64,000 nt of DNA from Gordius sp. MW1 (lineage: Eukaryota; Nematomorpha; Gordioida; Gordea; Gordiidae). The stretch's first letter is position 1. The number at the start of each line of letters is the position of its first letter. Under the pieces are notes generated by a model. That model searched no databases and was not told where the DNA came from. It saw only the letters and a list, made by a program, of their open reading frames with translations. The stretch covers positions 12,716,501 through 12,780,500 of the forward strand of contig OZ038528.1 in the NCBI GenBank assembly GCA_964036665.1, read 5' to 3'. Shown piece by piece: positions 7,140 through 62,832 of the stretch. The position numbers and the translations under genes are program-made.

Positions 7140-7156
7140 TATAAAGACACTAAATA

Positions 7157-7258
7157 TAAAATCTCTAAAAATCTCTAAAAATAACTAAAAATCTCTAAAA
7201 ATCTCTAAAAATCTCTAAAAATAACTAAAAATCTCTAAAAATAACTAAAAACCCTAAA
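7157..7258. repeat. Decamer repeat ATCTCTAAAA / ATAACTAAAA
   Basis: About ten tandem copies of a 10-bp unit (AAATCTCTAA, alternating with AAATAACTAA) end just 15 bp before the start codon of the FLYWCH gene. It may lie in the promoter or 5' leader. Confidence 0.85.
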
Positions 7259-7273
7259 AACACCTATTGTAAT

Positions 7274-8653: not shown

Positions 8654-9319
8654 AATTTATTTCTAGTTTTTTATAAATTTTTATAGTAAGGTGTGTTTTT
8701 CATCTTAATTATTAATCACAATCTTATTAATAAATATTGCCAATTCTAGTTTAGGTTTAAGGAAATCAAATATCACTATCTTCAAGGATCTATTTGTAAA
8801 AAGAAATTAATAAAATAATTTTCTGTAAAATAAATGTTGCTTGCTTATTATGATTAGTCCTTGAAATAAAACTAAAAGATCATTTGATGTTTATTTACAA
8901 ACATAAACAATAAAATCTCAAAATAAAATTTATATGCCCAGTAATAAGAAAAGATCTCTCTATTTTTAATAAAACTTTAACAGACTAAATATTTACAATT
9001 CTTAACCTTAACTACATTTCCAATTCAATCAAAAATTATATCTAAGCCAATTTAAATTTTTTATTATATAATAAACTTTACTAATTTAAATAAACTAATA
9101 CAATTAGAGTTAGGCAATTATAATTAAATTAATTTTTTATGCTAAAGATTTATATTATAATATCCTTGCACCCTTTTTTTATATAATACCTTTTATACTA
9201 AAATATTGTCTATTATTTTATCTTTATTTTTATATTTTAAATATGTACCTAAATGCGGTACTATGAAACGTTTGACTTTATAACGTTTGACCCGGATTCA
9301 TAATTATATTAAGGTATTA
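8654..9319. other. AT-rich spacer downstream of FLYWCH gene A
   Basis: Nothing recognised beyond the poly-A signal at its start. Confidence 0.4.
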
Positions 9320-21071: not shown

Positions 21072-21371
21072 TATGGGTTACCTTGGCAAATAAAATCTGA
21101 ATATAGCAACGCGATCATTGGTTACCTATGCAAAAAAACTTAACCTTTCTCTTTCAAGTATTCACGCAACCTATACATAAAAGTTAATACATTCAAATAG
21201 TTGAAGGTCTTGTAATTCACCGTTATTATAACCTCGACCAGTGTATATAAACGCGTTATTTTAACTAAAAAAACAATTCGTTCATTTCTTTCTGTTGTGT
21301 GCTTTAAATTGATATCTTGTCTAATAAAATAATATATTTATTAACAGTTTACAGGTATCCAAACCGAAACA
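21072..21371 (+). repeat. 5' LTR of gypsy element
   Basis: 300 bp, starting TATGGGTTACC and ending AACCGAAACA. It is nearly identical to the right LTR apart from a ~21-bp extra segment near 21142-21162. A 4-bp duplication CACG flanks the element (21068-71 and 25551-54). The right copy is preceded by TG, so the true start could be two bases earlier. Confidence 0.85.
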
Positions 21372-21372
21372 A

Positions 21373-22188
21373 ATGGTGACCCCAAGTACAAAAATGGAAA
21401 CACCACAGATGGATGATGACTCTAACGGGGAGAATACGTTATACCACAAGCTCCCCGCGTTTAATACGTTAAACCCACGTATTTGGTTTATTCAGATTGA
21501 ATCTCTGTTTAGAATTCGAAAAATTAAAAATGAATTCACAAAATTAGGTTACCTCATAGAAAACCTTCCACAGGAAGTGACGGCCGAAATTCCAGACTTA
21601 CTGGAAAACATACCGAACGAAGCCCCGTTTTCAAAAATGAAGGCAGCTATTATCGAACGCACATCCCGAAGAGATATGCAACGTCTGCACGACCTACTGA
21701 CAAACGTGGAACTCGGAGATCGATCCCCATCACAGCTGCTACGTTATATGAGAACCTTGTTAGGATCACATTCAATGGACGATACCATCCTTAAACAATT
21801 GTGGATGGACAAATTGCCAGCAACAATGACCGGTGTACTAGCAATTTTCGCGCCGGATCAAACACCCACAAAATTGGCAGAAACAGCAGATAAAATCGCA
21901 GCCACGTACCACGTAAGTCCCATAATTAATTCATTAAACCCAGATCTAAATAAAGAATTGGAAGAACTAAAAGAGCTCGTAAAAAACCTTAATGTCACAG
22001 TAGAAACACTAAAAAGGGATGTACAAAAAGTACGCTCACGTTCTTTTTCAAGACATCGATCTTACTCACGTCACACACGCGCAGCAAGGACAAACGAGCC
22101 TAACCTATACTGGTATCACAATCGTTTCCATGACAAGGCCACAAAATGCGTAGAACCTTGCACGTTCCACCAAAAAGATTCAAACTAA
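21373..22188 (+). CDS. gag: Gypsy Gag, CsRn1-type, intact frame
   Basis: 271 residues. The capsid region with LPAFNTLNPRIWFIQIE and QLLRYMRTLLG is typical of invertebrate gypsy Gag. An Arg/Ser-rich segment (SRSFSRHRSYSRHTR) precedes WYHNRFHDKATKCVEPC. In CsRn1 elements this tail is a CHCC zinc motif (CWYH…C..PC); here the first Cys is replaced by Tyr (YWYH), so metal binding is probably lost. The frame is open from the PBS-overlapping Met to the stop at 22186. Confidence 0.85.
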   Translation: MVTPSTKMETPQMDDDSNGENTLYHKLPAFNTLNPRIWFIQIESLFRIRKIKNEFTKLGYLIENLPQEVTAEIPDLLENIPNEAPFSKMKAAIIERTSRRDMQRLHDLLTNVELGDRSPSQLLRYMRTLLGSHSMDDTILKQLWMDKLPATMTGVLAIFAPDQTPTKLAETADKIAATYHVSPIINSLNPDLNKELEELKELVKNLNVTVETLKRDVQKVRSRSFSRHRSYSRHTRAARTNEPNLYWYHNRFHDKATKCVEPCTFHQKDSN

Positions 22189-22199
22189 TAGGCCGGCCA

Positions 22200-23304
22200 G
22201 CAAAAGCGACATCTGGCACCGGCCTAACAAGTCGCCTATTTTACATATATGATAATTCTTCAACTATGAATTTTTTAATTGACACAGGCGCAGAAATTAG
22301 CGTCATCCCAGCAACCAAACGCGAACGACTCAATTGGTCCAATATGCAGCTTCAAGCTGCAAATGCAAGCGTCATAAAAACGTTTGGGCAGAAATCGTTG
22401 ACGTTAGACCTAGGCCTAAAAAGGCCATATCAATGGAGCTTTACAATAGCTGACGTTAAATTTCCAATATTAGGAGCGGACTTCCTAAGTAAATTTAACT
22501 TTATAATCAATATTTCAAAGAAACAACTGATCGAAACACAAATTATGCCGGCCAAACAGATCGCAGTAAACTCCCAATTGGCTGTAGTAAATCCCCCGGA
22601 ATTCACTTGGTTAGTAAAAAAATTCCCCGCTGTGTTTAAAGCTACAGAATATACGCCAACGGCAAAACATAATACCCAACACCATTAAGAAACAAAAGGG
22701 CCGCTAGTATTCTCTAAACCCAGACGTTTGAATGCCGAAAAACTGAAGATAGCTAAAGGTGAATTCATGCACATGATGGATTTAGGCATCATCCGAACTT
22801 CAAATAGCAGCTGGGCTTCTCCTCTACACATGGCTCCAAAAAAGAACAATAAAGAGTGGTAACCATGCGGAGCGGGCCCTCAATGTCAAAACAATTCCCG
22901 ATCGTTACCCTCTACCACATATACATGACTTTTCACTTTCCTTGTCAGGTAAAAATATATTCACTAAACTGGATTTAGTTCGTGCTTATCACCAAATCCC
23001 AATGGCGCCAGAAGATATCCAAAAAACCGCCATCACAACCCCATTCGGTTTATTCGAATTCTTACGCATGCCTTTCGGTCTAAGAAATGCAGCACAAACG
23101 TTTCAAAGATTCATTGACCATGTTCTCAGGGGATTGGACCATACATTTACCTATTTGGACGACATATTGATAGCCAGTTCTTCACTTGCAGAACACAATG
23201 TACACGTTGAACAAGTAATACGACGACTTTTCGATAACGGGATTAATGTCAATATGCAAAAATGTAAATGGGGCGTAAAGGAAATTGAGTTCTACACATC
23301 GTGA
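22200..23304 (+). pseudogene. pol: Gypsy protease and reverse transcriptase, interrupted
   Basis: An aspartic protease with LIDTGAEISVIP (about 22277-22312) is followed by ILGADFL. The frame stops at 22686. RT then resumes, with another break near 22860: [31 protein letters not shown] and the catalytic YLDD at 23152-23163. The frame ends again at 23302, where the conserved sequence after EFYTS continues in another frame. Confidence 0.9.
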
Positions 23305-24041
23305 CGTCTAAAGGGTTAAAGCCTATACCCGATAAAATAGACACCATTGACAAATTTCCAACCCCAACTTCAATGACACAATTGAGAAGATTTATCGGCA
23401 TGATAAATTTTTACCGAAGGTTTATCCCTAAGTGTGCAGAGCTCCTCAAACCATTAACCGATCACCTCGACAATACCAAAAGTCCTATTGAGTTAACACA
23501 AGAAGCTAAAGACGCATTTATTCAAGCAAAACAAGCCCTTAAACAAATAACTAGTCTATCTCATTTAGACGAAAAAAACAAACTGTCGCTCACTACTGAT
23601 GCTTCCAACTTCGCAGTAGGAGGAGTTATACAACAACAAACATTAAACGATGATATACTACCACTTGCCTTCTATTCAAAAAAACTTTCACAAACGCAAA
23701 CACGCTACAGTACCTTCAGCCGAGAACTACTGGCCATTTACCTTATAATAAAACACTACAGCCATGTTCTCGAAGGACGCAATTTCACCGTATATACCGA
23801 CCACAAACCCTTAACTTATGCACTTAAGGCAAAGACGGACAAATACTCTCCTCGAGAAATACGTCAACTGGACTACATCTCGAAATTCACAGCGGACATC
23901 CAATACATCCGAGGTAGCACAAACATCGTGGCTGATACCCTGTCCCGTACAGACATCGACACAATCCAACTCCTTGCATCACAGTCATTACTGGAACTCA
24001 TATCTACGAGACAGAAGGTTGAAAATTACACAAATGACTAG
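23301..24041 (+). pseudogene. pol: Gypsy RT C-terminus and RNase H
   Basis: 246 open codons in one frame. RT thumb/connection (LRRFIGMINFYRRFIP), then RNase H with the Asp in LTTDASNFAVGGV, Glu in FSRELLAIY and Asp in YTDHKPLTYAL, then DYISKF…GSTNIVADTLSR. It is displaced by a frameshift from the preceding RT frame. Confidence 0.9.
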
Positions 24042-24169
24042 ACGAAATCTTTAATATTGGAACAATTCCCAATACCTGTTTCAAACCAAAAAATCATTTG
24101 TGATGTTTCTCAAACAACACCTTGACCTCTGGTACCTCCTACCTTACGACAAACAGTTTTCAATCAATA

Positions 24170-25242
24170 TCACGGATTATCACATCCCGGTATCCGTTCA
24201 ACACTGAAACGAATTGCGAAACGTTTTGTCTGGCCTAAAATGAACCATGACGTACGAAAATGGGCTCAACAATTTCTTAATTTTCAGGTCAGAAAAATAA
24301 ATAAACATGTTATTTCTACCCCAGGTACATTCAACCAACCTAATGCTCGATTCAGCCATGTCCACCTAGACATTGTTGGTCCGTTACCACCATCCAACGG
24401 TTATAACTACATTTTCACGGCCATAGACCGATACACCCGGTGGCCGATATCAATCCCTATAAAAGATACTTCAGCCGAAACCGTGGCTCGTACCTTTTTA
24501 ACACAATGGATAGCAAACTTCGGCGTACCAAGCACAATAACAACCGATAGAGGATCGCAGTTTCGTTCAACACTATTCCGACAATTTTCCCAGCTACTCG
24601 GTTATCATCATAAAATCACAACCGCCTACCATCCACAAGCTAATGGGCTGGTCGAACGCTTCCATCGTCAGCTAAAGAGTTCGATAATGGCAAAAGACAA
24701 CGCTAATAAATGGACCGAATTACTCCCATTGATACTACTAGGCATTAGAACGACGATCAAAGAAGACCTAGCTTGTTCTAGTTCCGAATTTACCAGGTGA
24801 TTTCATACAACATTCATCATACGACACCAATGCAACCGAGTTCGTACAAAGCCTTCGACACCATTTCGACAACGTACGTTTCTCACCACCACGTACGTCA
24901 AACACCAAACAACAAATCCCCGCCGATTTGTTTTCTACACCTTACATTTTTATCAGGACCGATAAAGTTCGAAAAAGCTTAATTCCTCTATACGAAGGCC
25001 CCTTCAAAGTTATTGACAGAAAAACCAAATATTTTGTGGTAAACAGAAATGGGAAACATGATAACATTTCTATAGATCGGTTGAAACCAGCATATACCGA
25101 ATCAGTCAACCCTATAGAACTCATAAAAGGTCCGACCATTCAAAACCAACCTTCCACCTCTAAAACTACCACAAAACATACAACAAAAGCAGGACGAAAA
25201 GTTCATTGGCCAGTTAAATTAGCCGAATACTTATATTTTTAG
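24170..25242 (+). pseudogene. pol: Gypsy integrase
   Basis: N-terminal zinc-binding region HPGIRSTLKRIAKRFVWPKM, but the expected C-x2-C pair reads FLNF, so both cysteines are lost. The DDE core is present: HLDIVGPLPP, TTDRGSQF and NGLVERFHRQLK. A stop at 24798 splits it. The C-terminal domain resumes at 24928 with LIPLYEGPFKVIDRK and SIDRLKPAY and ends at 25242. Confidence 0.85.
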
Positions 25243-34052: not shown

Positions 34053-36841
34053 TAGTGATGCTGATAAACCGATAAAAATCTCGGTCTCGTCTCGGTATTT
34101 GAAAAATTGAGACGAGATCGAGACGAGATTTTATATTCGAGATTTCGGCTTAAAATTTTTTAATCCATCAGAATCATTTATAGTAAATTTAATTTCTATT
34201 TGGATAATTTCCATCTAGGATGCTAGAATAAATTAATATAATTGGGATTCCTTTAATAATAAATTTTTACACACTCAAACTAATTACTATATCCATGTAA
34301 AATTAATTTTAATAAATTTAGCTAGTTCAATAAAAGATGAGTGGCTTTAAGGGCCTGTAGATCATATTTTTATATTGAGCAATAATACAAAATTCGGGCC
34401 TTCGGCCCTCGTGAGAAGGGGGAGGGGAGAAGGGAAGGGGGGAAGGGGGGACCACTCATCTATACTTCGTATAAATGTATCATATTTGCTATGCAATTTA
34501 TGGGCGAGAAAGGTGGGAAGGGGCGAGAATGCCTATAGGGGGGTATTAAATGCCCAATGATTAATTAATTATTTATACAAATTTTCCATTTATAGGCAAA
34601 ATGTAATATAGGCAAAATGTAACATAGGCAAGGGTTAGGGTTAGATTTAGTGTTTGCATCTAGTTGCGTATTACATTAGTTTTTATGGCCTTTAGTGATT
34701 ATGGGTCTAACAAACATTATATTATAAAACATCACAATGTTAAGAATTTGCAGAATTGTTGGGAGAAATTTTTTGTTGAATTTGAACAATTTTTAATTAA
34801 AAAAATCAAAAATTTGGCCAATGGTCATTTTTTCTCCATTGGTCAGCACCAACAGATACTCTATAAGTCAATGATAGCCATAAAAACGGGAAAAAAAATT
34901 TGATGCTCACTTTGGCCAATGGTCATTTTTTTCCATTGGTCAGCAGCCAGCACACGGTAAAAATGGATATAAATTCATAAGAGTAAAAAAAAACGAAAAA
35001 AAAATTTTCGAATCACATTTTGGCCAATGGTCATTTTTTTCCATTGGTCAGCAGCCATGACACGGTAAAAGTGGATATAAATTCATAAGAGTCAAAAAAA
35101 ACGAAAAAAAAAATTTCGAATCACATTTTGGCCAATGGTCATTTTATTCCATTGGTCAGCAGCCAGCGGACGACCAAAAAGTTATAATAGCAATGGTAGG
35201 AACAGGAACAATCATAATAGTCAAAAAAAACGAAAAAAATAATTTCGATTCACATTTTGGCCAATGGTCATTTTTTCCATCGGTCAGGAGCCAGCCGACG
35301 TCCAAAAAGTCATAATAGCAATGGTAGTAACAGGAACAATCATAATAGTCAAAAAAAACGAAAAAATGAACTCGGATTCACATTTTGACCAATGGTCATT
35401 TTTTCATTGGTCAGCAGCCAGCGGACGGCCAAAAAGTCTTATTAGCTGCGAGAACTATCATTTTGACAAAAGACAACGTTTTATTGTTGCGATTAGTTTG
35501 TTGTATCGCACAATGATAGTAACAAGAACAATCATAAGAGTCAAAAAAACTCCAGGATTCTAACCCAAAAACTAGTTAAAATGCATAGCAATTAAAAGTA
35601 AACAACTTTTATTTATGTTTATTATATAATAAAATGAAACAATAATAGAACAAGCGGACGGCCAAAAAGTCATATTATCAATGGTAGTAACAGGAAAAAT
35701 ATATTAATTTAATTTAAAAAATAAAAATAAAAATTTGCTCTCTCCGGGAATCCATCGCCGGGGTTCGAACCCACATTAATAGAGGCATAGACTTTTGTAG
35801 GGGCACAGGGACCCATATCAGTATAGGCATAGGTTCTTGTAGTGGAGGGCATAGGGTAATTATAGCAATTAATATCAATGTTACCCAATTCAAAAACGAA
35901 TAGATATACTTATGCATTAATTTAACATAGCAATTAAAACCCGACCCCGCCCGAAAGCGAGGGAGATAGAGATGAGGAGTGGGGCACCTCTTATGCATTA
36001 ATTTTAAAAATAACACAGCGAGGGAGATAGAGATGAGGGGTGGGGCACCTCTTTCTCATGCATTAATTTAAAAAATCGATAACCTAATATACCCAATGCA
36101 AATAGATAGGGACGGACGGACGGACAACGGACGGACAACAAAAAACGAGCCCATAAATTGCATAGCAATTAATATGAATATATAAACATGAGTTCTGATG
36201 TAGTAAATATTACTAAAACATATTTATTTCGCAACAATTACGTTTAAATATTTTGAATCGTTAAATAAACAAAGCGTGCCTGCCAAACGTTTAATTTCGA
36301 GATCATCTTTTGCTAGTTGATGATTGAACTCATCATGGCACATCTCTAAAACTCTCAATAGCTACAAATCACATTATGTATTTGTTTTGCAATATTACCT
36401 TTCAAATTATAATGGTATGGTTGGTAGGTGTATATCTAATCTATTTAATTTCTCTTAAATGTTACGATTTGGCAAGACAATAATATATATGATCCTAAGG
36501 TTTTTTAAAAAATTAATATTTTAGCGAAATTATTTTGCATTAAAAAAACAAATATAAAATCTAAAAACGATAATAAAGTAGTACCCAAGCGACATTAATA
36601 ACATGTTCATAGAGTTGAAATGAAAAAATGGTTCGCCATTTTAAATTTCTTTATTTATATTATAATAAAAAAAAATAAGGACATTATAAAAAAATTTTAA
36701 GTAGAGACATGTCGAGAATTCTTGTCAAGACGAGACGAGACCGAGATTTTCCTAACCTGAGACGAGATTGAGATTCTTATAATCCCACCTGAGGTGAGAC
36801 GAGATTTTACTTTCGCCAGACGAGACGAGCTCGAAACACTA
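34053..36841. mobile_element. GAGAC hAT copy with a large internal insertion
   Basis: The left end is TAGTGATGCTGATAAACCGA then repeated CGAGACGAGAT. The right end is CGAGACGAGCTCGAAACACTA. Flanks CGTACGGA (34045-34052) and CGGACGGA (36842-36849) agree at 7 of 8. Most of the interior (34391-36175) is repeat block A, inserted between family-specific sequence. Confidence 0.75.
34391..36175 (+). repeat. Complex repeat block A
   Basis: In order: CGGGCCTTCGGCCCTCGTG with a GGGA/GGGGAAG-rich stretch; ATAGGCAAAATGTAA repeats and GGGTTAGGGTTAG; a frame of about 75 codons (34664-34903) that recurs in block B; then about six units of TTTGGCCAATGGTCATTTTT followed by CCATTGGTCAGCAGCCAG; an inverted SINE-like piece; (GGAC)n; and the end GAGCCCATAAATTGCATAGC. 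Collinear with block B. It looks like an uncharacterised mobile or segmentally duplicated element. No protein domain was recognised. Confidence 0.75.
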
Positions 36842-38354
36842 CGGACGGATAATTAAATTGCATAGCAATTAAGACTTATATATATTATCTAACACAGCTT
36901 TATTTGTACACATATATTTAATATAAATCGATTGTATATATGTAAAACTCGGGCCTTCGGCCCTCGTGGGAAGGGGGAGAAGGGAAGGGAAGGGAAGAGG
37001 GGAAGGGAAGGGGGGACGACTCATCTGTACTTCGTATAAATGTCTCATATTTGCTATGCAATTTATGGGCGAGAAAGGTGGGAAGGGGCGAGAATGCCTA
37101 TAGGGGGGTATTAAATGCCTAATGAATAATTAATTATTTATACAAATTTTCCATTATAGGCAAAATGTAATATAGGCAAAATGTAATATAGGCAAGGGTT
37201 AGGGTTGGATTTAGTGTTTGCATCTAGTTGCGTATTAGATTAGTTTTTATGGCCTTTAGTGATTATGGGTCTAACAAACATTATATTATAAAACAACACA
37301 ATGTTAAGAATTTGCAGAATTGTTGGGAGAAATTTTTTGTTGAATTTGAACAATTTTTAATTAAAAAAATCAAAAATTTGGCCAATGGTCACTTTTTCTC
37401 TATTGGTCAGTACCAACAGATACTCTATAAGTCAATGATAGCCAAAAAACGGAAAAAAAAATTTTGATGCTCACTTTGGCCAATGGTCATTTTTTTCCAT
37501 TGGTCAGCAGCCAGCACACGGTAAAAGTGGATATAAATTCATAAGAGTAAAAAAAACGAAAAAAAAATTTTCGAATCACATTTTGGCCAATGGTCATTTT
37601 TTTCCATTGGTCAGCAGCCAGGACACGGTAAAAGTGGATATAAATTCATAATAGTCAAAAAAAAAACGAAAAAAAAGTTTTCGAATCACATTTTGGCCAA
37701 TGGTCATTTTATTCCATTGGTCAGCAGCCAGCGGACGGCCAAAAAGTCATAATAGCAATGGTAGGAACAGGAACAATCATAATAGTCAAAAAAAACGAAA
37801 AAAATAATTTCGATTCACATTTTGGCCAATGGTCATTTTTTCAATCGGTCAGGAGCCGGCGGACGGCCAAAAAGTCATAATAGCAATGGTAGTAACAGGA
37901 ACAATCATAATAGTCAAAAAAAAAACGAAAAAATAAACTCGGATTTTGGCCAATGGTCATTTTTTCATTGGTCAGCAGCCAACGGACGGCCAAAAAGTCT
38001 TATTATCAATGATAGTAACAAGAACAATCATAAGAGTCAAAAAAAACTCCGGGATTCTAACCCAAAAACTAGTTAAATTGCATAGCAATTAAAAGTAAAC
38101 AACTTTTATTTATGTTTATTATATAACATTGGTCAGCAGCCAGCGGACGGCCAAAAAGTCATAATAGCAATGGTAGAAACAGGAACAATCATAATAGTAA
38201 AAAAAACGAAAAAAATAATTTCGATTCACATTTTGGCCAATGGTCATTTTTTTCATTGGTCAGCAGCCAGCGGACGGCCAAAAATTCTTATTATCAATGA
38301 TAGTAACAAGAACAATCATAAGAGTCAAAAAAACTCCGGGATTCTAACCCCAAA

Positions 38355-38594
38355 ACTAGTTAAATTGCATAGCAATTAAAAAGTAAACAACTTTTATTTA
38401 TGTTTATTATATAACTAGTTAAATTGCATAGCATTAAAAGTAAACAACTTTTATCTATGTTTATTATATAACAAAAACTAGTTAAATTGCATAGCAATTA
38501 AAAGTAAACAACTTTTATTTATGTTTATTATATAACTAGTTAAATTGCATAGCAATTAAAAGTAAACAACTTTTATTTATGTTTATTATATAAT
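38355..38594 (+). repeat. ~60-bp tandem repeat containing TTGCATAGCAA palindrome
   Basis: Four copies of ACTAGTTAAATTGCATAGCA with AACAACTTTTATTTATGTTT begin near 38355, 38414, 38478 and 38535. Single copies occur near 38068 and 35572. Confidence 0.85.
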
Positions 38595-39369: not shown

Positions 39370-39944
39370 TAGGATAAAGTGGGTCATGGAATATTGGTAC
39401 AATGACTAGCAAGAGCGAATTGGCAGAGGTTCTAAGGTGGAGAACAATCGATATCCCCTGTATACAAGAGACCAAATGGAAGGGCCAAAAAGCAAAATAC
39501 ATAGGTGACGGATACAAATTATATATTTACGGCGCAGAAACGCATCGGAAGGGCGTCGGTACAGTGCTATCGGATGAATTTCAACAAACTGTCGTCGACG
39601 TTAAAAGAATAAATGGCAGAATTATGACGATACAGCTTTGTTATAATTGTACTACGATAAGCGTTATATCAGCATATGCTCCTCAAAGTGGATTTTCAGA
39701 GGCGGAAAATGATTGTTTTTGGATGGATCTCGAGAATATTCTATCCCAATTCGGTAAAGAGAGACTAATAATTATCGGAGCGGACCTCAATGGACACGTG
39801 GGCAAATCAGGAGGAGGATCCGAAAGAAATTACGGTGTTCGGGGTTACGGCCTAAGAAATGAAGCAGGTGCGGAAATTCTAAAAATGTCTCATGCTTCTG
39901 ATCCAGCAATAGAAAATACAAAAAGAGACAGGAACATCTTATAA
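39370..39944 (+). pseudogene. LINE apurinic-type endonuclease domain
   Basis: Just upstream of the Met at 39402 the frame reads GSWNIGTMTSKS. Then IDIPCIQETKWKGQKAKYIG (catalytic Glu), the TVLSDEF region, ISVISAYAPQSGFSEAEND, and LIIIGADLNGHVG (catalytic Asp/Asn). The final His-containing strand should lie after about 39940, where the frame is lost (IENTKRDRNIL, stop). This nicks target DNA in LINE retrotransposition. Confidence 0.85.
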
Positions 39945-40263
39945 CGTATAAAAGCGGTAGCCCTACCACTTAGATAGATTTCTTTCTCGTCAACAGAACG
40001 CACTTAAAATATGTTCAAAATGTTAAGGTAATACCGAATGAAATATTGGCCTGCCAACACAAGTTGTTGGTGGTGGACTTTATATTAAAGGACCTTAAAG
40101 GGCAAAAGGTACAAAGAGTAGCGGCTAGTATCCAATGGAGAAGACTAAAGAATAATATTTAACGTTTGGAAACAAGTAATTAAACATGCTGAATTTACCT
40201 CGTGCGAGGATCAATGGAGTGATATAGCTGGCACAATGCGAAAAGTAGGACGACAAATATTAG

Positions 40264-41553
40264 GTGAAAGCAAGCCCACTAAAAGAATTCTCAAGGAGAC
40301 GTGGTGGTGGAATGAAGAAGTGCAAAAATGTATCAAAGAAAAGAAGGTGCAAAGTTTGGTATAAAAGCAAGGATAGTAATGATAAGCAAGCTTACCAAGT
40401 AGCTAAAAGATCGGCTAAAAAATACGTAGCAAAAGCTAAAAACAAGGTGTACGACGATAGAAATGTAAAACTAAACTCAAAGGAAGGAGAAAAATTGATC
40501 TACAAAATCGCAAAGTCAAGGGCCCGAAATTCTAAAGATTACGTAGAATGCCGACTAATCAAGGGACAAAACGGAGAAATACTAACACGCGACAGCCACT
40601 ACAAAGGTGGTACGATTATTATAGGGATTTATCAATTTAAAAGGGGCCTGTAGTCGAAGACATTAACCAGGAGAATACAATAGGAGAATTTAACACAGCG
40701 GACTGGATCACGGAAACGGAAGTCAAAGTTGCTATGTGTAAACTAAAGACAGGATAAGCTTTCGGACCAGACAACATACCAATAGAAGGCATTAAAGCGT
40801 TGGTGCACAATTCCTCGCCAAACTTTCCAACAATATCTTGAAAACGGGTAAAATGCCTAAAGAGGAGTGATAGCTATATGATCCCGATATAAAAGATGAA
40901 AGAGGATATTCAGGATTGTAACAATTACATAGGGATAAAGTTTATGAGTCACACTTTCAATGTGTGTTAAAAAGTGATCGAAAAACGGCTTCAAGGTTTA
41001 GTTTAAATTCGAGATAACCAATTCGGATTTATGATGGAGAGGTCTACATCAGATGCCCTAAACAGTGTTAGAAGATTAATGGAACGGTTTAGAAAAAGGG
41101 AGGAGGATTTGCACATGTGTTTCATAGATCTAGAAAAAGCGTTTGATAAATTTCCTTGTACTTTAGTGTGGAAATGTCTTAAAGAAAACAATGCGCCAGA
41201 ATTATACGCCAGAGCAATAAAAAATATGTGCAAGGGAAATAAAGCATACATTAGAACAACGGTGGGAACTACAAAGGGTTTTACCATTAACACTAGAGTC
41301 CATAAAGGTTCAGCTCTTAGCCCCTTCCTATTCATAATGATAGGATATTATTACCAAGGATTTGGGCGAGGAAGCTCCTTAGGCAATGATCTTTGCAAAC
41401 GATATAATCCTCTCTGCCAAAAGTGAACAAGAATTGGCTAATACTGTAAATAGATGGGCAAATGCAATAGAAGAAAGTAGTCTCAGGGTAAATCGAATGA
41501 AAACAGAATACATGAAGACAAAGTTTAAATCAGATAAAAATCAGCTATGTGCA
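40264..41553 (+). pseudogene. LINE reverse transcriptase, N-terminal and palm part
   Basis: 40264-40653 is a Lys-rich linker with SRARNSKDYVECRLIKGQNG. After a broken stretch (AFGPDNIPIEGIKA near 40757), 41031-41426 reads RSTSDALNSVRRLMERF, then LHMCFIDLEKAFDKFPC (first catalytic Asp), then HKGSALSPFLF. The expected FADD box reads FANDIILSA after a frameshift near 41390, so a catalytic Asp is changed to Asn. Confidence 0.8.
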
Positions 41554-43001
41554 TAGGGTTTCGATCTCGTCTCGGTCTCGAAAACAAAATCTCGTCTCGT
41601 CTCGGGAGCGATTTTGAAATCTCGATCTCGTCTCGTCTCGGTCTAGAAAAATCTCGATCTCGTCTCGACTTTTTAAAATAAAATATATATGAAATAAAAA
41701 TTTCTCCTATTTTATTAAAATATTAAATATATGTTAAAAAATCCTAATGGCATTTTATATTTTTTGAAAAGCTTTAATACACAAACTTTTTAAAGATTTA
41801 GCGGGATACGACATCTCATTGACAATATTTTCTATATGAATTAATTCATATAGATAACATTTTCCATGGAAAGTGCAGACTAAAAAAACTCTAAATAAAT
41901 TTAAAGTATAGAAAATTAAATTTTATTGTTCTAGCAAATTATATCATTTTTATCAAATTAACTGGGTTTGTCAACTAAAAATAGACATAGAAAATTATAA
42001 GCTCGCTTTTAGTTAACTTAATTGCACAATTGAGCCAATAGAGATCCTTCTATAAATCAAAGTGCACATATTTAATTTTATGACAAAAATCATTATAGTC
42101 AAATTTGTATTCTAATTAATTACCTTCCAATCTAACTAACTTTGCCATTAAATAGTAATTTATCTTGTACAGTATAGGTTCGAGTATTTATTTTATATTG
42201 CACAATTATAGAAATTATAGTAAGTGCACCTGCCCACCCAGCATATAATGTGAAAAGTAATGCATATGACAGAACTATGTATTCACATAATGTCTTATTA
42301 AGTTTCAAAAATTTGGCAGGTATACTATTAGTTGAAGTATAAAAACTTCTAGAAAACTCATAATTTAAGATTTAATTTACTACGGTGTCATTAAATACTT
42401 TATTGTACTTTTCAAATCGTTAGGCGGGTGCTCAAAAATTTCGAGCCACCTTGGCTTAACTTGTTTAATTATTCAAACTGATTGACGACCAATTTATAAT
42501 TATCGCATTATGCAGGATGAGTAATTGCGAAATTCAAATTTTAGTATTATTCACTATTCCATCAGAACTCATTCTAAGCCTAACATTTTGTAATATTTAA
42601 TAATGCTATGAGTAAAAATATGCGATAAATATATTATAAAATTATTCACATCCTCTATGTCTAAGGGTCTACCATACTTAGGTAAATGATTGCCAAATAC
42701 ATTTTTTGCAAAAATATATAATATTTGTTACACTTAGAAATTTTTTAACATCAAATATATTCCATACATGTTGATCTACACTTAACAGTTTATATGTAAA
42801 TCATGCAGGTTAAAATACACGATAATTTAATAAAATCTAACGATCAATAAAAAGTCGAGATCTCGCCGGAAAAATCTCGTATCATCTCGTCTCGATATAA
42901 TTCTCGTCTTGATCTCGACTTCGTTTTTCAAATTCTCGTCTCGTCTCGATTTTTCGAGACGAGACGAGACCGAGATTTTTCTCGGTTTTTCCGCATCACT
43001 A
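41554..43001. mobile_element. GAGAC hAT MITE with 8-bp duplication
   Basis: Starts TAGGGTTTCGATCTCGTCTC and ends TTTTTCCGCATCACTA, flanked by an exact 8-bp TATGTGCA (41546-41553, 43002-43009). Both ends have several hundred bases of alternating CGAGAC/GTCTCG repeats. The interior is collinear with 61685-62832 (for example TTAGCGGGATACGACATCTC). No coding. Confidence 0.95.
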
Positions 43002-43009
43002 TATGTGCA

Positions 43010-43620
43010 TCCCTTATTTTAGGCGATTGGCAACTTACAAGCGTGAATTCCTTCAAATATTTAGGATCAACACTTCAATCGGATGGTGGAATGGATAAAG
43101 AAATCCAAGCAAGGATAAATTCTGGACGGCTCAAATGGAGAGACTTGGCAGGCCTTCTGTATGACAAAAACATCCCAAGAAAACTAAAAGGTGCATTGTT
43201 GTAAAAATCCATCATACAGCCAACAGTCCTGTATAGCTTGGAATCTTGGGATATACGTAAAAGGGAAGAGCAGCGTCTTGCGCCCATGGAGATGAGAATG
43301 CTAATATGGGTCCTAGGAGTAATAAAAAAGGAACAGCGAAATAAAGAAATAATCAGAAATTTGGGTACTACATCTATTACGACAAAGCTCCTTACAAACA
43401 GACTAAGATGGTATGGCCAGTCGAGAGATGGCACGATAGCTCAGTCGTAAGAAAATTTAGAAGATGAATTTTGTAGGAAAACGAAGGAGAGGAAGACCCA
43501 AGCTTACCTGGATCCATAAAATAAGGTACGATGAAAGTCCACAAGATAAAGTAAGATCTATGTAAATATAGAGACAAATGGAAACGAATGCTGAAAAGAT
43601 TGACCACCAGCCTAGGTAAT
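43010..43620 (+). pseudogene. LINE post-RT region, copy 2
   Basis: A readable stretch continues the interrupted LINE: VNSFKYLGSTLQSDGGMDKE, then INSGRLKWRDLAGLLYDKNI, then ESWDIRKREEQRLAPMEMRM and TTKLLTNRLRWYGQ. One in-frame TAA lies at 43202. This is the conserved RT thumb and C-terminal region of RTE-type LINEs. Confidence 0.8.
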
Positions 43621-44654: not shown

Positions 44655-44925
44655 AGCTAATATGAGTAAAAATCATCAGACCTATTGAAGATGTAGAAAA
44701 ACTAAATGTGGCGGGAAAGGAATCCTTATGCCCGAAAATTTTTCAATAACTAAGGATCATACCCATCCACAAGTAAGCTTGCAAGTTAGTAGTTATTATA
44801 TACATCCTACAGGTAGTTCAAACATTACAAATGAATTCTTGGAACCTCCTATAAATCATGACCTACCAAATCTTGACATGCAACTCAGTATTTTTTGCAA
44901 CAAATGTTTTATGGGGAAGATATGA
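44655..44925 (+). pseudogene. Broken FLYWCH-type zinc-finger copy
   Basis: The frame reads TY-stop-RCRKTKCGGKGILMP, then ENFSITKDHTHPQ. The stop (TGA) stands where the family's Trp (TGG) would be, so this copy kept the canonical W position before losing it. Cys spacing and the final H-x-H fit genes A and B. GTAAGC after HTHPQ and an acceptor CTACAG 40 nt later resemble the short first intron of those genes. Upstream domain residues are not legible. Confidence 0.6.
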
Positions 44926-45159
44926 AGAGACAAATCTCCCAAGAACCAATAATCACATAGAAAAATTACACATAAGAAACTTGTAAAGGCTTCCCATCCC
45001 AATATTTATCAATTTATTGATTATCTCAAAAAGGCACAGAAAGAAACTAATTCAAATATCTATAAAATAAAGGAAAAACAATAAACCCAAAATCTAAGAA
45101 AGAAATCTACAAAGAATCTTGTATCAAAAATTTAAAAGAACATTATACTAACAGTGAAT

Positions 45160-45955: not shown

Positions 45956-46754
45956 CTTGATCAGTTCTGACCAATTTGGCTGCTTTTTTTCTGCGACTTT
46001 GACCTGTTCCCTATTTCCGTTAATGGAGCAGCTGGTATTGACAATTTGCTACATCCATATTGTCAACTCGCATTTATATCCTACATGTTGCAAACGTTGA
46101 TTTTCACAGGGGTACGGGGATAGTTAGTTTTTTCCAATGCAAGAAAATTGTGTGTGTATTGATGTGTTTTCCTACAAAGTTTATTTATATTGACGCGGGT
46201 ATCCACAGTATGCGCAGGGGTGCGCCTATAGCCCATGCGTCATTAATTAATCACAAGAAATGAAGAATCCACAAGAACAGTGAATATAATAATTTGTAGC
46301 AATTATCATTATGTAGTTCTTCCTCTCTTAACGTCTCCGTTTTTGTGCAATCTATCTCTCAAAGAAAAGGAACTTTACAACTATTCTCGTCTCCACTAAA
46401 GGGTGGTACTGGTTCCATTTTATGTCAAATGCAATAAGCTTGACACCTCCATCCCTTACCCCTTAACCTAGCTTAATCAAATTAACCGGTATAAAGATTC
46501 AAAAACTTATCCTAATGAAAAACTAATCCTGTTTTATTCAAGTGTGGCGCTATAGTAGACTAAATTTCATTAGCTTCATTTTTAGATCCTTTGACTATTA
46601 TTTAGACTTATCATATGTATTGAATTGAATAATGCCCTAAATGCTCAATTGCTAATTACTCATCAGTTATACTCACCTATTCTTACCAGAACTCACCTAT
46701 TCACATCAGAACGCAGCTGATATTACCGTTTGTTTTTAATTTTTGAAGTGTAAA
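45956..46754. other. Spacer upstream of FLYWCH gene B
   Basis: No gene recognised. The frame at 46060-46263 has no motif support. Near 46640-46720, CACCTATTC-type repeats occur. Confidence 0.4.
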
Positions 46755-47499
46755 ATGTCTAATGTTAAATTTATATTATCCCAAAGAAAAAAACCTATTT
46801 TAGTTTATGAAAATTTTGAATACATTCTAGTCGATATTGGAAAAGATACGCGTGTTTATTATAAATGTCGATGTAGTAATTGTTCTGGAAGAGGTTTCTA
46901 CTTAAATGAAAATTTTACCTTAACCCATGAGCATGATATTATCCCACATAAAGGTAACTAATAATTATTTGCACTTATTTTATATATAGCTTATCCAAAC
47001 TATGGATGCATTGATGAACCTCAACAAATATTGAATATTTACAATACTGCTAGTAGGCCTCTTCAAACATTAGACAAGTAAGTTAGTTGAATACAAATTC
47101 ATCATTAACGTATTCTAGATGTATTTGGGATAGCAATGGAACAAAATAGGTGCAGTGCAATATCTACTTCCACCATTTTTACATCTCATAGTTGTAAGTT
47201 TAAGAAAAATATATTATAATTTGTATAGAATGTGTCTCTAGTCATCCTCAATTTGCTCATGCCTTGCCTTCCACCATTTTTACATCTCATAGTTGTAAGT
47301 TTAAGAAAAATATAATTTGTATAGATTGTGCCTCTAGTCATCCTCAATTTGCTCATGCCTTGCCTTCCACCATTTTTACATCTCATAGTTGTAAGTTAAC
47401 AAAAATATAATTTGTATAGATTGTGTCTCTAGTCATCCTCAATTTGCTCATGCCTTGCCTTCCACCATTTTTACATCCCATAGTTTGTGCCTTCATTAA
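46755..47499 (+). CDS. FLYWCH-type zinc-finger gene B with duplicated mini-exons
   Basis: Exon 1 (46755-46953) is 199 nt, the same length and phase as in gene A, and encodes LSQRKKPILVYENFEY, then YYKCRCSNCSGRGFYLNENF and HEHDIIPHK; Cys-x4-Cys and the terminal His pattern are kept, with Tyr for the usual Trp. Exon 2 (46990-47077) starts AYPNYG. Exon 3 is best read as 47150-47193; an earlier acceptor at 47118 leads to a stop. Module exons of 66 nt lie at 47229-47294 and 47325-47390, and the last exon is 47420-47499. Introns are 36, 72, 35, 30 and 29 nt. The module peptide begins YCVSSHPQFA and ends TIFTSHS. At 47229 the joined codon is TAA instead of TAT, so that module must be skipped, edited or null; skipping leaves 158 aa. 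AATAAA at 47578-47583. Confidence 0.65.
47168..47485 (+). repeat. 95-101-bp tandem array of exon+intron units in gene B
   Basis: Three full exon modules (66, 66 nt and the start of the last exon), each sharing TTCCACCATTTTTACATCTC and ATAGTT before the donor GTAAGTT and ending its intron in TTTGTATAG. Intron length falls from 35 to 30 to 29 nt by small deletions. Like gene A, the repeat begins inside the preceding exon. Confidence 0.9.
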
Positions 47500-47583
47500 T
47501 ATTCATAATTTACGTTGTGCTATTTGTAAACTCTATTTTTTTATGTTTTGATATTAAAAAGGATTGTTCTATTTTGCAATAAA

Positions 47584-48988
47584 GTTTTTAATTTATGTGA
47601 TTGTGTCCAATATATGTTATTGCTGATAATTTTCATCTAATGTTATAAATTATTACAGTTTGTAAGTTATAAGTAGAGCTGTTAAGTAACAAGTTATTGG
47701 AACTATTTCATTTTTTAAATGTAACAAACAAAAATAACTTTAATTTTATGGTTGATATAATAACAACATATTAAATAAAGTAGGAACTATAAATTTAGAA
47801 AATTTGGCTGGAAATTATCATTTGTAATATAAATTATCAAAGTTTAATTTCATCTAATAAAAGCCTATGCTAGATATAAATAGATTAAATGAATTATGAT
47901 CCCCTAAATTTATACTGAGATTCTTACATTACATATTAGACAAGAAGATTGCCTCATGGGGATGGGGTGGGTTTTCAAAATTTTTGGACTTATAATTTTT
48001 TATTAAACACTTTATGAACAATAATGGATGTGCTAAAGTAATGAATGTGAACCAACAGTTATTAATATTTAACCATGAGGACCTATTTATTTATGATATA
48101 TGGAGGTAATATATCTTGATATCACCTCAAGGTATAATTATAAAATGAATATGAGATGTTTAATTAAGATGTGTAATAATAGAACATTTGAATGTATTAG
48201 GTTAAGGTGGCATGATCTTATTTGCAAGCTACATGATCATACATATATTCTAGATGTAATTGAGTAAGAACTAAAAGTAGGAATTTCATTATCACCTTCA
48301 TCACATATCTATTTGTCAGAAGCAATTGATAGTATTTGTTTACAAACCTTTATATTGCTTTCCATAAGTAAAAAGATGTCATTTGTATATCAAAATTAGA
48401 TCACAAAACAAATCTAGACTATTACCATTCGTTAATTGTTTAAGTCTCATTCTATCCAATAAGAATATAAACTTATTGTACATATAAATAGATTAGGTAA
48501 ATTTTATTCCCCAAATTAAAATTGAACTTCTTAATAGATTTTACGCTAGATAAGTAAATCTAAATTAACTTTTTATAATATAAAAAAACTATGACTGATG
48601 ACTCATTATTTTATTGTAAAATTTGCATTACAATTTTACACTCATTTCACTTTTTATAGGATAAAAAATGTATGAAAGATGATTTATTCAATATTTATTT
48701 ACTCATTCTCAAAACAAACTTTTTATGATCACAAATAATACAATCAAAGCCTAGGTGAGTAAATCTAAAACCGTTTCTTATTATGTTATAATATTATACT
48801 CTTACACCTATACTTACTTATATTATAACTTTAAATAAGGTTTTATAAAAAACACTATTTTTAATTATTGAAAAAATGTTGTATTTATTTTATATGACTT
48901 TTATTTCATGTGGTTTATAATTTTAATATGTACCAAAATGCGTTATTTGAAGCATTTGAGCAGTTAGCAATTGAGTAGGATTCGAATA
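47584..48988. other. AT-rich intergenic stretch before SART1
   Basis: No coding or terminal repeats recognised. It would contain the promoter and 5' UTR of the SART1 homologue. Confidence 0.4.
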
Positions 48989-51900
48989 ATGCATGATCAA
49001 AGCAAAAAGGAACACAAAGAAAAGAAAAAACATAAACACAAAAGACATAAAGGTGATCACGTTCATGAGATCAACAAAGAATCAAAGGACCATACTGAAA
49101 GTGGGAATTTTACTCAGATACAACATGTAGAATCTCTTGGTATTCAAGATTCAAAGTATATAAATATATATAATTATTTATTATTATTTATTTTTATGTA
49201 AATATTTATTAATAAGTAAGGTTCGATTGTTTTAAATATTAAAGAGAAAGGGAATTTATGTTTTGGGCCACATGTTTTAGTAAAATACTTGTTTGTAGAT
49301 ATTTCTATATTTTTCAAAATCTATATAGCAAATTGAGAGAGCAATTAGGATTGGCACCATTAAAAGTAGATTCTAAAAATTTTGAAGAAAGGAAAGATGG
49401 TATACTAAATTACTATTTGTATACAATATATTAGGCAACAAGCAATATACTATACAAGGGCAAACATTTGTACATTTGCCCCCTACCAATATGAGTAAAA
49501 TCAAATCTGCTAAATTACTTGAAGAAAAGCTACATCTCAGAAAAGAAAAAAGAAAAATTGAGGATAGGTTAAAGTAATTAATTATTTGCTTTTCTTAAAC
49601 CTGATAGGCATTTTAAAACATTAGGGGAAAGTGATGAGGATGATAGTGCCATAAGTTGGGTTAAAAAAACAAGGCAGATGGAGAAAGAAAAGGAATTAGC
49701 AGCAAAGAAGGCTAAAATGCTTGAGGAATTGGACGAAGAATTTGGAATAGGAACACTTGTTGATGCACATGTTTTAAATGATCAGCAATTGATTAATAAA
49801 GTAACTAGTTATTGATTAGATTTGAGACATCTACCTATTTTGATATCTCACTTTCAAAATCCATTTTTTTATTTCCTTACCTTTTAAGAATTTATTTCTA
49901 AATTCATTATGTTGTGATTTTTTATTTTTTTTTGTCATATTATTGATTAAATACAAAATAGGTATAATTTCCTCATATACCAGCATAAAGTATAGATTGG
50001 TCCTAAGTAACAAAATTTTGTTATTAGATATAATAGTTCAATGTGTCCCTACAAAAATCAAACTTGTTTTTATTAATTGCTTAATTATAAAATTAAATTT
50101 ATGATTTTTAAGTTTTTCCCATAGACTTTTCAGGTTCATGAAATCATTACATTTAATTTGACAATACAGAAAATGAACATATTGTAGTTTAAAATAAAAA
50201 GGTAAAAATCAAAAAGGTGAAAATTTGTGGGGCATGGCTGACATTATTTGTTAGAAAAGTGCTGATGTCATAATATGTTTTTTAATCAATATGAAAATAG
50301 TAAATTCAAACACCTAGTAAATTGTCCTTATAATAACGATGGGCACATAGACCTGTTTTAAAAAATCCTCTATTTTTTCTGTGTAATAAAAAGTTGATTT
50401 TTATTGCCATTTTATTAACTTTTTTATTAATCTTATCTGTTTGTCTTCATTTTTTTATATTTATAAAAAATGTGTCAAAACCTTAAAAACTAATTTTGGT
50501 CCAATTGTGATAAGCATTGAAGTTTTCAATTTTAGAACCTATGTTATTTAATATAAAACTTATGTATTAAGTTTTTCCTTGTCAAGATTATAATTAAAAA
50601 GGGAAGCGGGGTGGTATCTTTATGCGAATTTATAAATGTTAAAATTTTATTTTCAATGGGCCGGGCCTAAAGGGCCGATCTTGCTAGGGTGTCTGGTCTA
50701 AAGGGCGTGAAAAGAGTAAGGAGGGGCCCGAGCGGACCTTAAAGTTTTCCGAACGGGCACGGACGGGCCTGAAGTGTATAAAAGAAGTTATGTACGAACT
50801 CGAGCGGGCTGCTGATCTCCTGAAAAGGGCCTGTTGCACATCCCTAATGTCAATACCACCGTGGCTATTTTCATTTATCATGTCCGCTATAGGTTGAATA
50901 CTCAAGCCCTGTGAAGTCATTTATCGTATGGTCGAGGTTTGTGTACTTCAGGCTCCAGCATATCATTCTCATCTCTGTGGCTTGTATCAGCTTTTCTCCC
51001 CTAGCATTAAATGCCAATGTTGCATTCCGTTAAAGTAACATCTGTCTTGCGATAGATTTGAAAGCACGGCTCTTTAACTATTGTCCCACATTTCGATATT
51101 CTTTGCCACTTAAGCCATCTTTTTCGAACCCGTGCATTGACATCCTTTGCACAACCTCCTTTTAATATAGCATCGAATCGAGGTTTGTCTATTTTTACCT
51201 TCATCATTTTGTCATCCAGCGAAGGAGTTCCTGTCACTCGTCTCAATATTAACCGTTTTCGATTAAGACTTTTCTTGCTAACCGTTTCGATAACGTCTAA
51301 TATAGTTTTTGCTTTTGTATCTTCTCCCATAGTACTATATTATCTGCTTATAGCATACTTGTTATCATATTCATAACAGAGGTCAGGTAAAGGTCTCATC
51401 CTATTACTAAACTCCCCACTCCCTGCTCTGCCTGAATTTTTTTTTTAATTTTGAGCAACAAAAATATTTTAATTTCGAATTTTTTGGATAAGAACTAGGA
51501 TTAATATATAATCAAATAAAAAGTGACAAAATAATAGATTTTTCAACAAATGTCATTGAGCCCGAATTGCCCGAATCTTATTATGGTGTTTGCCCGAAGA
51601 TCTAAATTAACGACAGATTCCCGGACGGGCAGCGGGCCGGGCTTTTCTGATCTCTGATTAATAATTATTTATCAGAGATCAATGAGCAAAAAGATTAGAG
51701 CAGATTCTTGATTTAATCCAATTTCAGCTGGAAGCTTTTCGACTCTCACTGACAGGAATTTGAGGCTTTATAAATATATTTCATAATCAAACAAATGCAT
51801 CCGGAATATTCTGTCCTATCCATCCCCAACATATCTAATCAAAAGGCACCGCATTATGCCTTTTTCCAAGTCGATAAAGACCTAGATTTCTTTTCCTCAT

Positions 51901-60624: not shown

Positions 60625-61023
60625 TTAATCATGTCCGCCAAAGTTTAAATACTTATTTTTTCTTACGATGGATTTGTAAGCTTTGTTCTTCAACCATATT
60701 GGCATTTTCTTGTCGCACATTACACCGGATATACTTCGCCATTTAAGCCATCCTTTTTTGGATCCGATCCGTGCATTGACTTTCGTTGCGCAACCTCCCA
60801 CTTGATGTAGCATCGAGCCGAGGTATTTAAACCTGTCTACTTTTGGGTACTTTAGATGGTCATGCAGCGAAGGGCTGCCTGTACCTTTCATTTCCATGTA
60901 TACCGTTTTTCGATCGTTGACCTTTAAACCAAATCCAGCTAAGCGCTTTGACCACTTTTCGGCTTCTTCCAATACTTTCTCCCTTCCTTCCTCGCATAGT
61001 AGTATATTATCGGCATATAGCAT
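60625..61023 (-). pseudogene. LINE copy 3 RT, YADD-box to thumb
   Basis: A 132-codon frame starts MLYADNILLCEEGREKVLEE: the catalytic YADD reads YADN. Then LAGFGLKVNDRKTVYMEMKG, DRFKYLGSMLHQ and KGWLKWRSISGVMCDKKMPI. Confidence 0.85.
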
Positions 61024-61439
61024 ACACCATGGCGATGGATTTTGAACTCTCGTTATCGTCTCTATAATTATATTAAATAAAAAAGGACTTAAAGCAGATC
61101 CTTGATGTAATCCAATTTTTACCCGAAAAGGTTAAGAGTCACCAACTGTCGTCCTAAAGCAAGAGTTTGAGGCTTCATAAATATTTTTCATAAGCCGTAT
61201 ATATGGGTCAGGGATATTTTGTTTCCTTAGGCCACCATATTAAATCGCGGGGGACCGTGTCATAAGCTTTTTCCAAGACGATAAAGACCATACGGTCTTT
61301 CCTCTTTTCACCATACTTATCCATCATTTGTCTTAGTGCGGATTGGGTCGATTGTGGATTTGCCGGTCACAAATCCGTTAGCCGATATTTTTACCTCGTT
61401 TTCAGACTTGCCTTTTTATGAGCTTAAAGGAGTGGCAAG

Positions 61440-61684
61440 TTAGCTTGATACCTCTGTAATTGTCACGGTCCTGAGGTCTTCTTTGCCTTTGAATAAGAGT
61501 ATAACCGTGCTTAATCTCCATTGATTAGGAATTCGCTCTTCTACCAATATCTTGTTAAAGAGGTTTGTCATGGTGGTGACTCCTTCTTCACGACATCCGA
61601 GCAATGCTTCCACTGGTATTCCATCTGGGCCATTTGCTTTTCTTTTTTTCAACTTGTTCATTTGTGCCCTTACTTCATCCTGCT
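61440..61684 (-). pseudogene. LINE copy 3 RT, N-terminal fingers
   Basis: The frame reads KRKANGPDGIPVEALLGCRE, then TTMTNLFNKILVEERIPNQW and STVILLFKGKEDLR, the conserved start of RTE-type RT. A frameshift separates it from the palm. Its 5' side is cut by the hAT insertion. Confidence 0.85.
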
Positions 61685-62832
61685 TAGTGTTTCGATCTCG
61701 TCTCGTCTCGGTCTCGAATACAAAATCTCGTCTCGTCTCGGGAGCGATTAGGAAAATCTCGATCTCGTCTCGTCTCGGTCTAGAAAAATCTCGGTCTCGT
61801 CTCGTCTCGACGAGAATTCTCGTCTCGTCTCGACTTTTAAAAAAAAATATATACGGAATAAAAATTTCTCCTATTTTATTAAAAATATAAATAAGTGTTC
61901 AAAAATCCAAATGGCAAATTTTATATTTTTGGAAAAACTTTAATACACAAACTTTTTAAAGATTTAGCGGGACACGACATCTCATTGACAATATAAAGAT
62001 ATGAATTAACTCATAAAGATAACATTTTCTATAAAAAGTGCAGACTAAAAAAACTATAAATAAATTTGAAATATAAAAGATTAAATTTTATTGTTCTAGC
62101 AAATTATAATATTTGCATCAAATTCACTGTGTCTGTCAACTATAAATGGACTTCGAAAATTATAAGTTCGCTTATAGTTGATATAGTTGCATAAGTGAGC
62201 AAAATGAGACCCTTTATTAACCTTTGCTAATGATTCAAAGTAGACCTTAACATATTTAAGGCAAACGTTTAAGTCCATTAATATAACCATCATCAGTTAT
62301 AGCCCATAGTGTTTATTGCATGTTTATGCGAGTGACATTTAATGATGTTATTATTATTTATAGAATTGATAACTAGTTGCAGAAATTAAAACGTTGTAAA
62401 ACAACAATAAAAGCAGCATTTTTATAGAATTAAGAACATAAGGTTTTAAACTTTAAATTAAAGAGTACGTATTTAAATGTATGACAAAAATCAACCATAC
62501 TTAGGTAAATGATTGCCAAATTTTATTTTTTTTGCAAAAATATATAATATTTACTACACTTGTGAATTTTTTTAATATTAAATATATTCCATACATATTG
62601 ATTTACACTTAATACCTTAAATGTAAATTAAAATACACAATAATTTACTAAAATCTAACGATCAATAAAAAGTCGAGATCTCGCCGAGAAAATCTCGTAT
62701 CGTCTCGTCTCGACATCAAAATTCTCGTCTCGATCTCGACTCCATTTTTCAAATTCTCGTCTCGTCTCGTCTCGGTTTTTCGAGACGAGACGAGACGAGA
62801 CCGAGATTTTTCTCGGTTTTTCCGCATCACTA
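61685..62832. mobile_element. GAGAC hAT MITE with exact 8-bp duplication
   Basis: Starts TAGTGTTTCGATCTCGTCTC and ends TTTTTCCGCATCACTA, flanked by ATCCTGCT on both sides (61677-61684, 62833-62840). Excision restores the LINE frame around LRTQMNK. 1148 bp, collinear with 41554-43001 but about 300 bp shorter. Confidence 0.95.

Follow-up and report, generated by a model that had tools for sequence, protein, structure and literature searches.

The two FLYWCH-type genes of the window (the whole 64,000-nucleotide stretch analysed), designated A and B, are very likely internally deleted, non-autonomous copies of Phantom-like MULE transposons, the intact gene of which would encode a FLYWCH head, a linker made of repeated exons, a second FLYWCH domain (FLYWCH2), and a DDE transposase. 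We regard them as transposase-deleted because the full-length relatives L042, L051, and L052 share their heads or modules and carry a transposase. The assignment draws on what was observed of the element ends and their target-site duplications, on the dispersal of the copies, on relatives of full length with splice models that stay in frame, on the variable number of units, and on one head swap. The repeated modules, which the preliminary description had taken for C-termini diversified by a multigene system, would instead form a variable-length exon array in the N-terminal linker of a transposase whose catalytic part the window copies have lost; a transposon thus takes the place of a candidate host diversification system. 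As far as can be judged from sequence, what is new here would be that a MULE transposase carries a second FLYWCH domain in its N-terminal part together with a frame-preserving exon minisatellite, the latter expanded differently in several subfamilies.

Element B spans 2,348 bp of the forward strand (46636–48983), its limits being those of homology with other B-type copies, and is bordered at both ends by the same 9-bp target-site duplication, GAATAATGC (46627–46635 and 48984–48992). Its termini are inverted repeats, CCTAAATGCTCAATTGCTAATTACTCA... and ...TGAGCAGTTAGCAATTGAGTAGGATTC, which as read by eye are imperfect and only ~20 bp long; MULE terminal repeats are often longer, and short ones are also on record, according to passages of PMC6446971. 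The related element A (2,177 bp, 7123–9299, forward strand) has its own perfect 9-bp duplication, ATAATTATA (7114–7122 and 9300–9308). When the ten-kilobase surroundings of 18 B-type copies are compared with the window copy, the homology starts no more than 15 bp from position 46636 in 15 of them and stops no more than 10 bp from position 48983 in 17. Direct duplications of 8–10 bp flank 9 of the 15 B-type copies with both ends recognised (window copy included), a count that leaves out 7 of 22 sequences (L041, L043, L047–L050, and element A) and whose members are not all independent, as L031 and L032 have flanks in common. These two copies show a flanking duplication of 5 bp, and L033, L034, L035, and L045 show none. 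The lengths found in A, B, and the nine copies lie within the 8–11 bp expected of MULEs. In the control, one of 210 mismatched flank pairs shared at least 7 bp; the single long match, of 13 bp, joins the left flank of L046 and the right flank of L038, both of which lie in similar sequence. Element B directly precedes an ORF (48984–49156), the ATG of which overlaps the right target-site duplication and which we take to resemble SART1/Snu66. Insertion at the start of a gene fits the genic bias of MULEs described in a passage of PMC6446971.

Within element B, the layout previously described was confirmed. A 199-nt head exon encoding a FLYWCH-type zinc finger (46755–46953) is followed by exon 2, which starts with YPNYG (46990–47077), by exon 3, the 3′ part of which is a first, partial module copy (47119–47193), and by 66-nt phase-1 modules at 47229–47294, 47325–47390, and 47420–47499, all on the forward strand; the last of these has no donor site and runs into a TAA at 47497–47499. 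The introns from exon 3 onward measure 35, 30, and 29 nt and are bounded by GT and AG. Gene A agrees with gene B in its 199-nt head exon (7274–7472), which likewise ends in phase 1, and in the YPNYG start of exon 2, but departs from it in its modules: the array (7597–8555, forward strand) consists of 10 units, seven of which have a 63-nt rather than a 66-nt exon, with 38-nt introns. Tandem Repeats Finder reports 10.7 copies of 101 bp at 7538–8603 in A and 3.3 copies of ~95 bp at 47167–47485 in B, and the array start falls within the preceding exon in both, as had been noted. The module peptides, NSGSIQTSYLNDATNLPISLL in A and YCVSSHPQFAHALPSTIFTSHS in B, indeed bear no obvious similarity by eye.

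Neither window copy reads through, a failure that in the case of B had gone unmentioned. A TAA spans the first module junction of B (T at 47193, AA at 47229–47230), and exon 2 carries a 2-nt deletion, measuring 88 nt against the 90 nt found in 15 of the 20 B-type copies with a recognised exon 2, so that the frame, if spliced normally, meets a stop within exon 3. Gene A is interrupted by a 1-nt deletion in its 6th module (8096), and its 4th and 10th modules carry 6-nt deletions. Following the array of A, a short stretch resembling a transposase C-terminus (8590–8640, forward strand; tblastn 71% over 17 aa, E=8.8e-6) appears to be the scar of the internal deletion. The broken copy at 44655, which the preliminary description had grouped with A and B in a possible multigene system, includes what seems to be a decayed MULE transposase end (44909–45075, forward strand), recognised by weak tblastn matches in two frames (48% over 21 aa and 44% over 34 aa, E=2e-4).

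The nature of the missing part becomes apparent in L042 (contig C7), which measures 6,146 bp between the same ends as B and has a 9–10-bp duplication. Its splice model keeps one frame from the head through eight modules (seven of 66 or 63 nt and a last one of 72 nt) and, by way of a further exon of 63 nt, on into FLYWCH2 and the transposase. With the next exon added by hand, this model matches FLYWCH in two stretches and the MULE transposase domain PF10551 at 41.5 bits (cut-off 27.6); L042 thus has the DDE transposase typical of MULEs, which the window copies lack, and the FLYWCH next to a transposase that is typical of Phantom. On the basis of its domains, the FLYWCH being the indicator, membership in the Phantom group is suggested. 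The nearest relatives found for the L042 transposase are a Mytilus MULE-domain protein and a Tetranychus FLYWCH/MULE protein; D181 and D247 are invariant between L042, these two, and two unnamed proteins, and four of the five aligned transposases contain the NNHLEG motif, including its expected E, the fifth being truncated. The transposase model of L042 depends on one intron whose donor (GTTTTT) is weak, and the final ~34 residues are encoded in a different frame of the genomic sequence; L042 may therefore not be fully intact.

Two further relatives were followed up to FLYWCH2. L051 (C1) has a head 98% identical to that of A, ten 63-nt modules and a last one of 69 nt, the link exon, and FLYWCH2, and we consider it a probable full-length relative of gene A, built on the same plan as L042 with a different module. 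Its link exon, SIVDAEILMDVVQLIQSTQQ, is of the same kind as that of L042, SIRDAEILVDVVERIQSSQQ. L052 (C3) combines a foreign head, 47% identical to that of B, with nine B-type modules, and its transposase place is 95% identical to that of L042; by eye, the change from foreign to B-type sequence falls within the intron that precedes the first module. The zinc finger is hence not the constant part of the system, as had been proposed. Spliced by hand, L051 and L052 are both open from the head through the link exon into FLYWCH2, with GT-AG at every intron and phase 1 at every junction. A further type is represented by L049 (C1), the transposase of which is 69% identical to that of L042; its 117-bp units are open even without splicing, and its link exon holds a stop. 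Transposase exons give dN/dS ratios of 0.20–0.26 in three comparisons among L042, L051, and L052, over short overlaps; L049 was left out since its stretch holds stops (ratios 0.32 to L051 and 0.12 to L052, none computable to L042). For the link exon, the ratio is 0.33 between L042 and L051 and 1.42 between L042 and the decayed L049.

Among 18 B-type loci, only L042 has a same-strand transposase within 8 kb downstream; L050 has one on the other strand. Seen from the transposase, a head lies on the same strand no more than 4 kb upstream at 20 of the best 50 of 151 matches and at 17 of the 27 places whose identity to the L042 transposase reaches 60% or more. Random placement gave a mean of 0.06 and a maximum of 2 in 1000 trials, the test comparing the best 50 of 151 transposase matches with 170 head places among the matches listed. 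The remaining 10 of the 27 close places, with no listed head within 4 kb, may be truncated copies, may have heads too divergent to be listed, or may belong to headless subfamilies.

The heads score on either side of the PF04500 cut-off of 23.6 bits: head A lies above it (27.1 bits) and head B just below (22.4 bits, E=1.4e-4). C38, C43, H60, and H65 (gene A numbering) are invariant in six heads, and the predicted structure is an all-beta model with a pLDDT of 78.8. The best match of the head in a profile search of the PDB, human FLYWCH1 (2rpr, E=0.081), is not significant, and a single-sequence search of the PDB with the head returned nothing useful. Across the 211.8-Mb, 12-contig assembly, the 66-aa head of A recurs identically at seven places on four contigs (counting the window copy; 150 of 485 candidates were scored); for the head exon of B, three of the 150 scored matches among 561 candidates encode an identical protein, again including the window copy. 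Between subfamilies, head exons show dN/dS of 0.24–0.56, which indicates that the heads are constrained; the window B head compared with L042 gives 1.44, from few changes. At some gene-A-type loci, two or three head exons stand in a row upstream of a transposase (C3:4205092/4205634, C5:17763715/17764762, and C8:32373224/32374472/32374910). The FLYWCH finger itself may thus also have been multiplied at these loci.

Three kinds of array unit were distinguished, with exon plus intron lengths of 63+38 nt (A), 66+35 nt (B), and 63+54 nt (L048/L049 type), all with open, whole-codon exons. The amplification of different exons behind a FLYWCH head, noted in the preliminary description, does recur in these three types, and a 118-bp array stands directly before a more distant transposase. 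The B and L048/L049 units, however, have their 3′ edge and donor in common, ACATCTCATAGTTGTRAGT, and are therefore not fully independent, so the expansions do not all appear to have started from wholly unrelated sequence. The 118-bp array, coding-compatible and of 12.6 copies, lies beside a B element in an inverted duplicate (L031/L032, C8:31.16 and 31.24 Mb); next to L031, it is situated 0.3 kb upstream of a transposase place of only 46% identity.

These arrays could alternatively be non-coding minisatellites in a large first intron of the transposase gene, their apparent exons being coincidental, a reading we consider unlikely. It is favored by the fact that the exons are known here from splice models, and by the presence of several other ~100-bp minisatellites in the window. 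When the other window arrays with periods of 75–140 bp were parsed cyclically, however, none of 14 strand cases (from 8 arrays, both strands being reported for 6) yielded an open GT-AG exon unit, whereas the sense strands of the A, B, and L048/L049 types all did and the antisense strands of window A and B did not. The separation is less clean outside the window, where three arrays not known to belong to the family parse as open on one strand each (the 82-bp and 109-bp arrays of L034 and the 115-bp array of L035), as does, with another split, the antisense strand of the B-type arrays in L041, L045, and L046. The 109-bp array (L034, 124–873) and the 115-bp array (L035, 4696–5343) adjoin B elements and are coding-compatible; no convincing FLYWCH head was found near either.

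The substitutions within modules give this non-coding reading some further room. In non-autonomous B copies, where 61 of 70 units have a 66-nt exon and introns range from 27 to 35 nt, we counted 16 nonsynonymous and 3 synonymous changes and 1 stop, which against 146:44:5 possible changes gives no sign of constraint and looks neutral (the count leaves out L040, L042, L050, and L052). Nonsynonymous and synonymous changes in the modules of L042, L051, and L052 (3 and 3, 2 and 1, and 1 and 0, respectively) are too few to prove coding. Against coincidence stand the complete openness of L051 and L052 across all their modules and phase-1 GT-AG junctions, and the constant link exon, which has no start codon at its beginning and needs an upstream partner.

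Somewhat less probable still is that head and array form a separate second protein, of the mudrB or VANC anti-silencing type, with the array DNA as its binding target. MULEs with a second ORF are described in passages of PMC6446971, and VANC targets are often tandem repeats that differ between related elements (PMC5735166, in part); modules here similarly differ between subfamilies while the head is conserved. Predicted splicing, however, keeps a single frame through the start of the transposase, continuing from the array into the link exon and FLYWCH2 in three full-length elements. The foreign head that precedes B-type repeats in L052 weakens strict head–repeat co-evolution of the VANC kind.

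A shortened form of the P element, KP, represses transposition, and shortened copies here might likewise make a FLYWCH-only repressor. Module number among B-type copies varies from 1 to 8, and 8 of the 27 that were parsed have a frame open from head to last module under a strict pattern, although one of these is the full-length L042 and another, L008, lacks one acceptor. Nine of the 27 nevertheless have a stop inside the head and others have frame changes; ten of the 19 non-open copies lack a recognised exon 2 or exon 3, which means that the strict pattern alone does not prove each of them broken. Taken with the lack of constraint seen in the modules of non-autonomous copies, for which this candidate was rejected, a KP-like role is very improbable. 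A host FLYWCH gene family with tandem exons diversifying its C-termini, suggested by open head exons and by modules that differ between A and B, is scarcely tenable and was ruled out: the elements have terminal repeats and target-site duplications, near-identical copies are dispersed over the assembly, relatives carry a transposase, and the frame is broken in both A and B. The comparison previously drawn with mod(mdg4) does not apply.

If A and B are deleted MULE copies, as we propose, the intact gene would run from a FLYWCH head exon of ~199 nt through small phase-1 exons with introns of ~35–40 nt to a constant 63-nt link exon, FLYWCH2, and the DDE transposase, with the head and FLYWCH2 acting as two DNA-binding fingers of one transposase. 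The array would grow and shrink via slippage or unequal exchange. Because each unit pairs a whole-codon exon with an intron bordered in phase 1, units can be gained or lost without a frameshift, and the array could thereby act as a length-variable linker between the two fingers. Shortened copies keep both ends and were thus probably moved in trans by intact relatives; once moved by transposase made elsewhere, they would decay. We find it doubtful that the phase-1 micro-intron array is, beyond this, an adaptive recombination platform, in which all introns would be interchangeable and crossovers at any point would both tune finger spacing and swap different FLYWCH heads onto one transposase body with the frame kept; L052 would then be an example caught in the act.

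Among the closest known parallels is the Phantom/Muta group of arthropods, which, as described in parts of PMC5225508 for Muta1 of Aedes aegypti, also has FLYWCH before a DDE transposase, 8–9-bp duplications, and many non-autonomous derivatives. In Muta1 a single FLYWCH occupies residues 24–92 of 504, there are two exons, and repeats of 12 bp are nested within terminal repeats of 145 bp (PMC5225508). The elements here differ in carrying FLYWCH twice, in their short termini, and in the ~100-bp exon array that lies within the gene. Rehavkus likewise combines 9-bp duplications with a minisatellite, and aphid Phantom elements have minisatellites too; according to PMC6446971, these lie either ahead of the 3′ terminal repeat, as in Rehavkus, which also encodes a PHD finger, or beyond the transposase ORF. 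Here the array lies 5′ of the transposase, and the L042 model has no PHD match at E<=1; membership in Rehavkus was ruled out on these two grounds. Tm1 of root-knot nematodes resembles the present elements in its Phantom-like transposase, mostly 9-bp duplications, and variable tandem repeats, but those repeats are mostly ~14 bp long and lie in the terminal repeats (PMC3169594, in part). The Arabidopsis VANDAL elements are MULEs with a sequence-specific protein, VANC, and target tandem repeats that vary between relatives (PMC5735166, in part); VANC is a separate protein directed at those repeats as its targets, whereas in our splice models the array is in frame with the transposase.

A search of 5.8 billion proteins with the head plus linker (residues 1–140 of the L042 model), which needs shared 5-residue words, gave 29 candidates, none at E<=0.01; the two-FLYWCH arrangement thus gained no support from proteins elsewhere. 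No exon array within a transposase gene or between two FLYWCH fingers came to light in the titles, abstracts, and passages of the open-licence literature, although one may have been reported elsewhere; in the text of a 2026 survey of arthropod MULEs available to a term search, the words "intron" and "tandem" do not occur (PMC13359780).

The transposon described here would show that tiny introns can make of a minisatellite a frame-safe, length-variable protein linker. If the predicted splicing holds, the B-type copies examined, with 1 to 8 modules, offer a natural series for the effects of linker length and head identity on transposase targeting, and the same series bears on the exchange of DNA-binding domains between transposases. 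Gene finders may label such copies as host FLYWCH genes. Other repeats in the window include what we take, by motif, to be a broken LTR retrotransposon with gag, protease, reverse transcriptase, and integrase-like frames (21328–25242), and, presumably, endonuclease and reverse-transcriptase remnants of non-LTR retrotransposons (39378–43600 and 60625–61900, also by motif). A large minisatellite block occupies positions 34882–38415, its units having AATTTCGAATCACATTTTGGCCAATGGTCA-like sequence in common.
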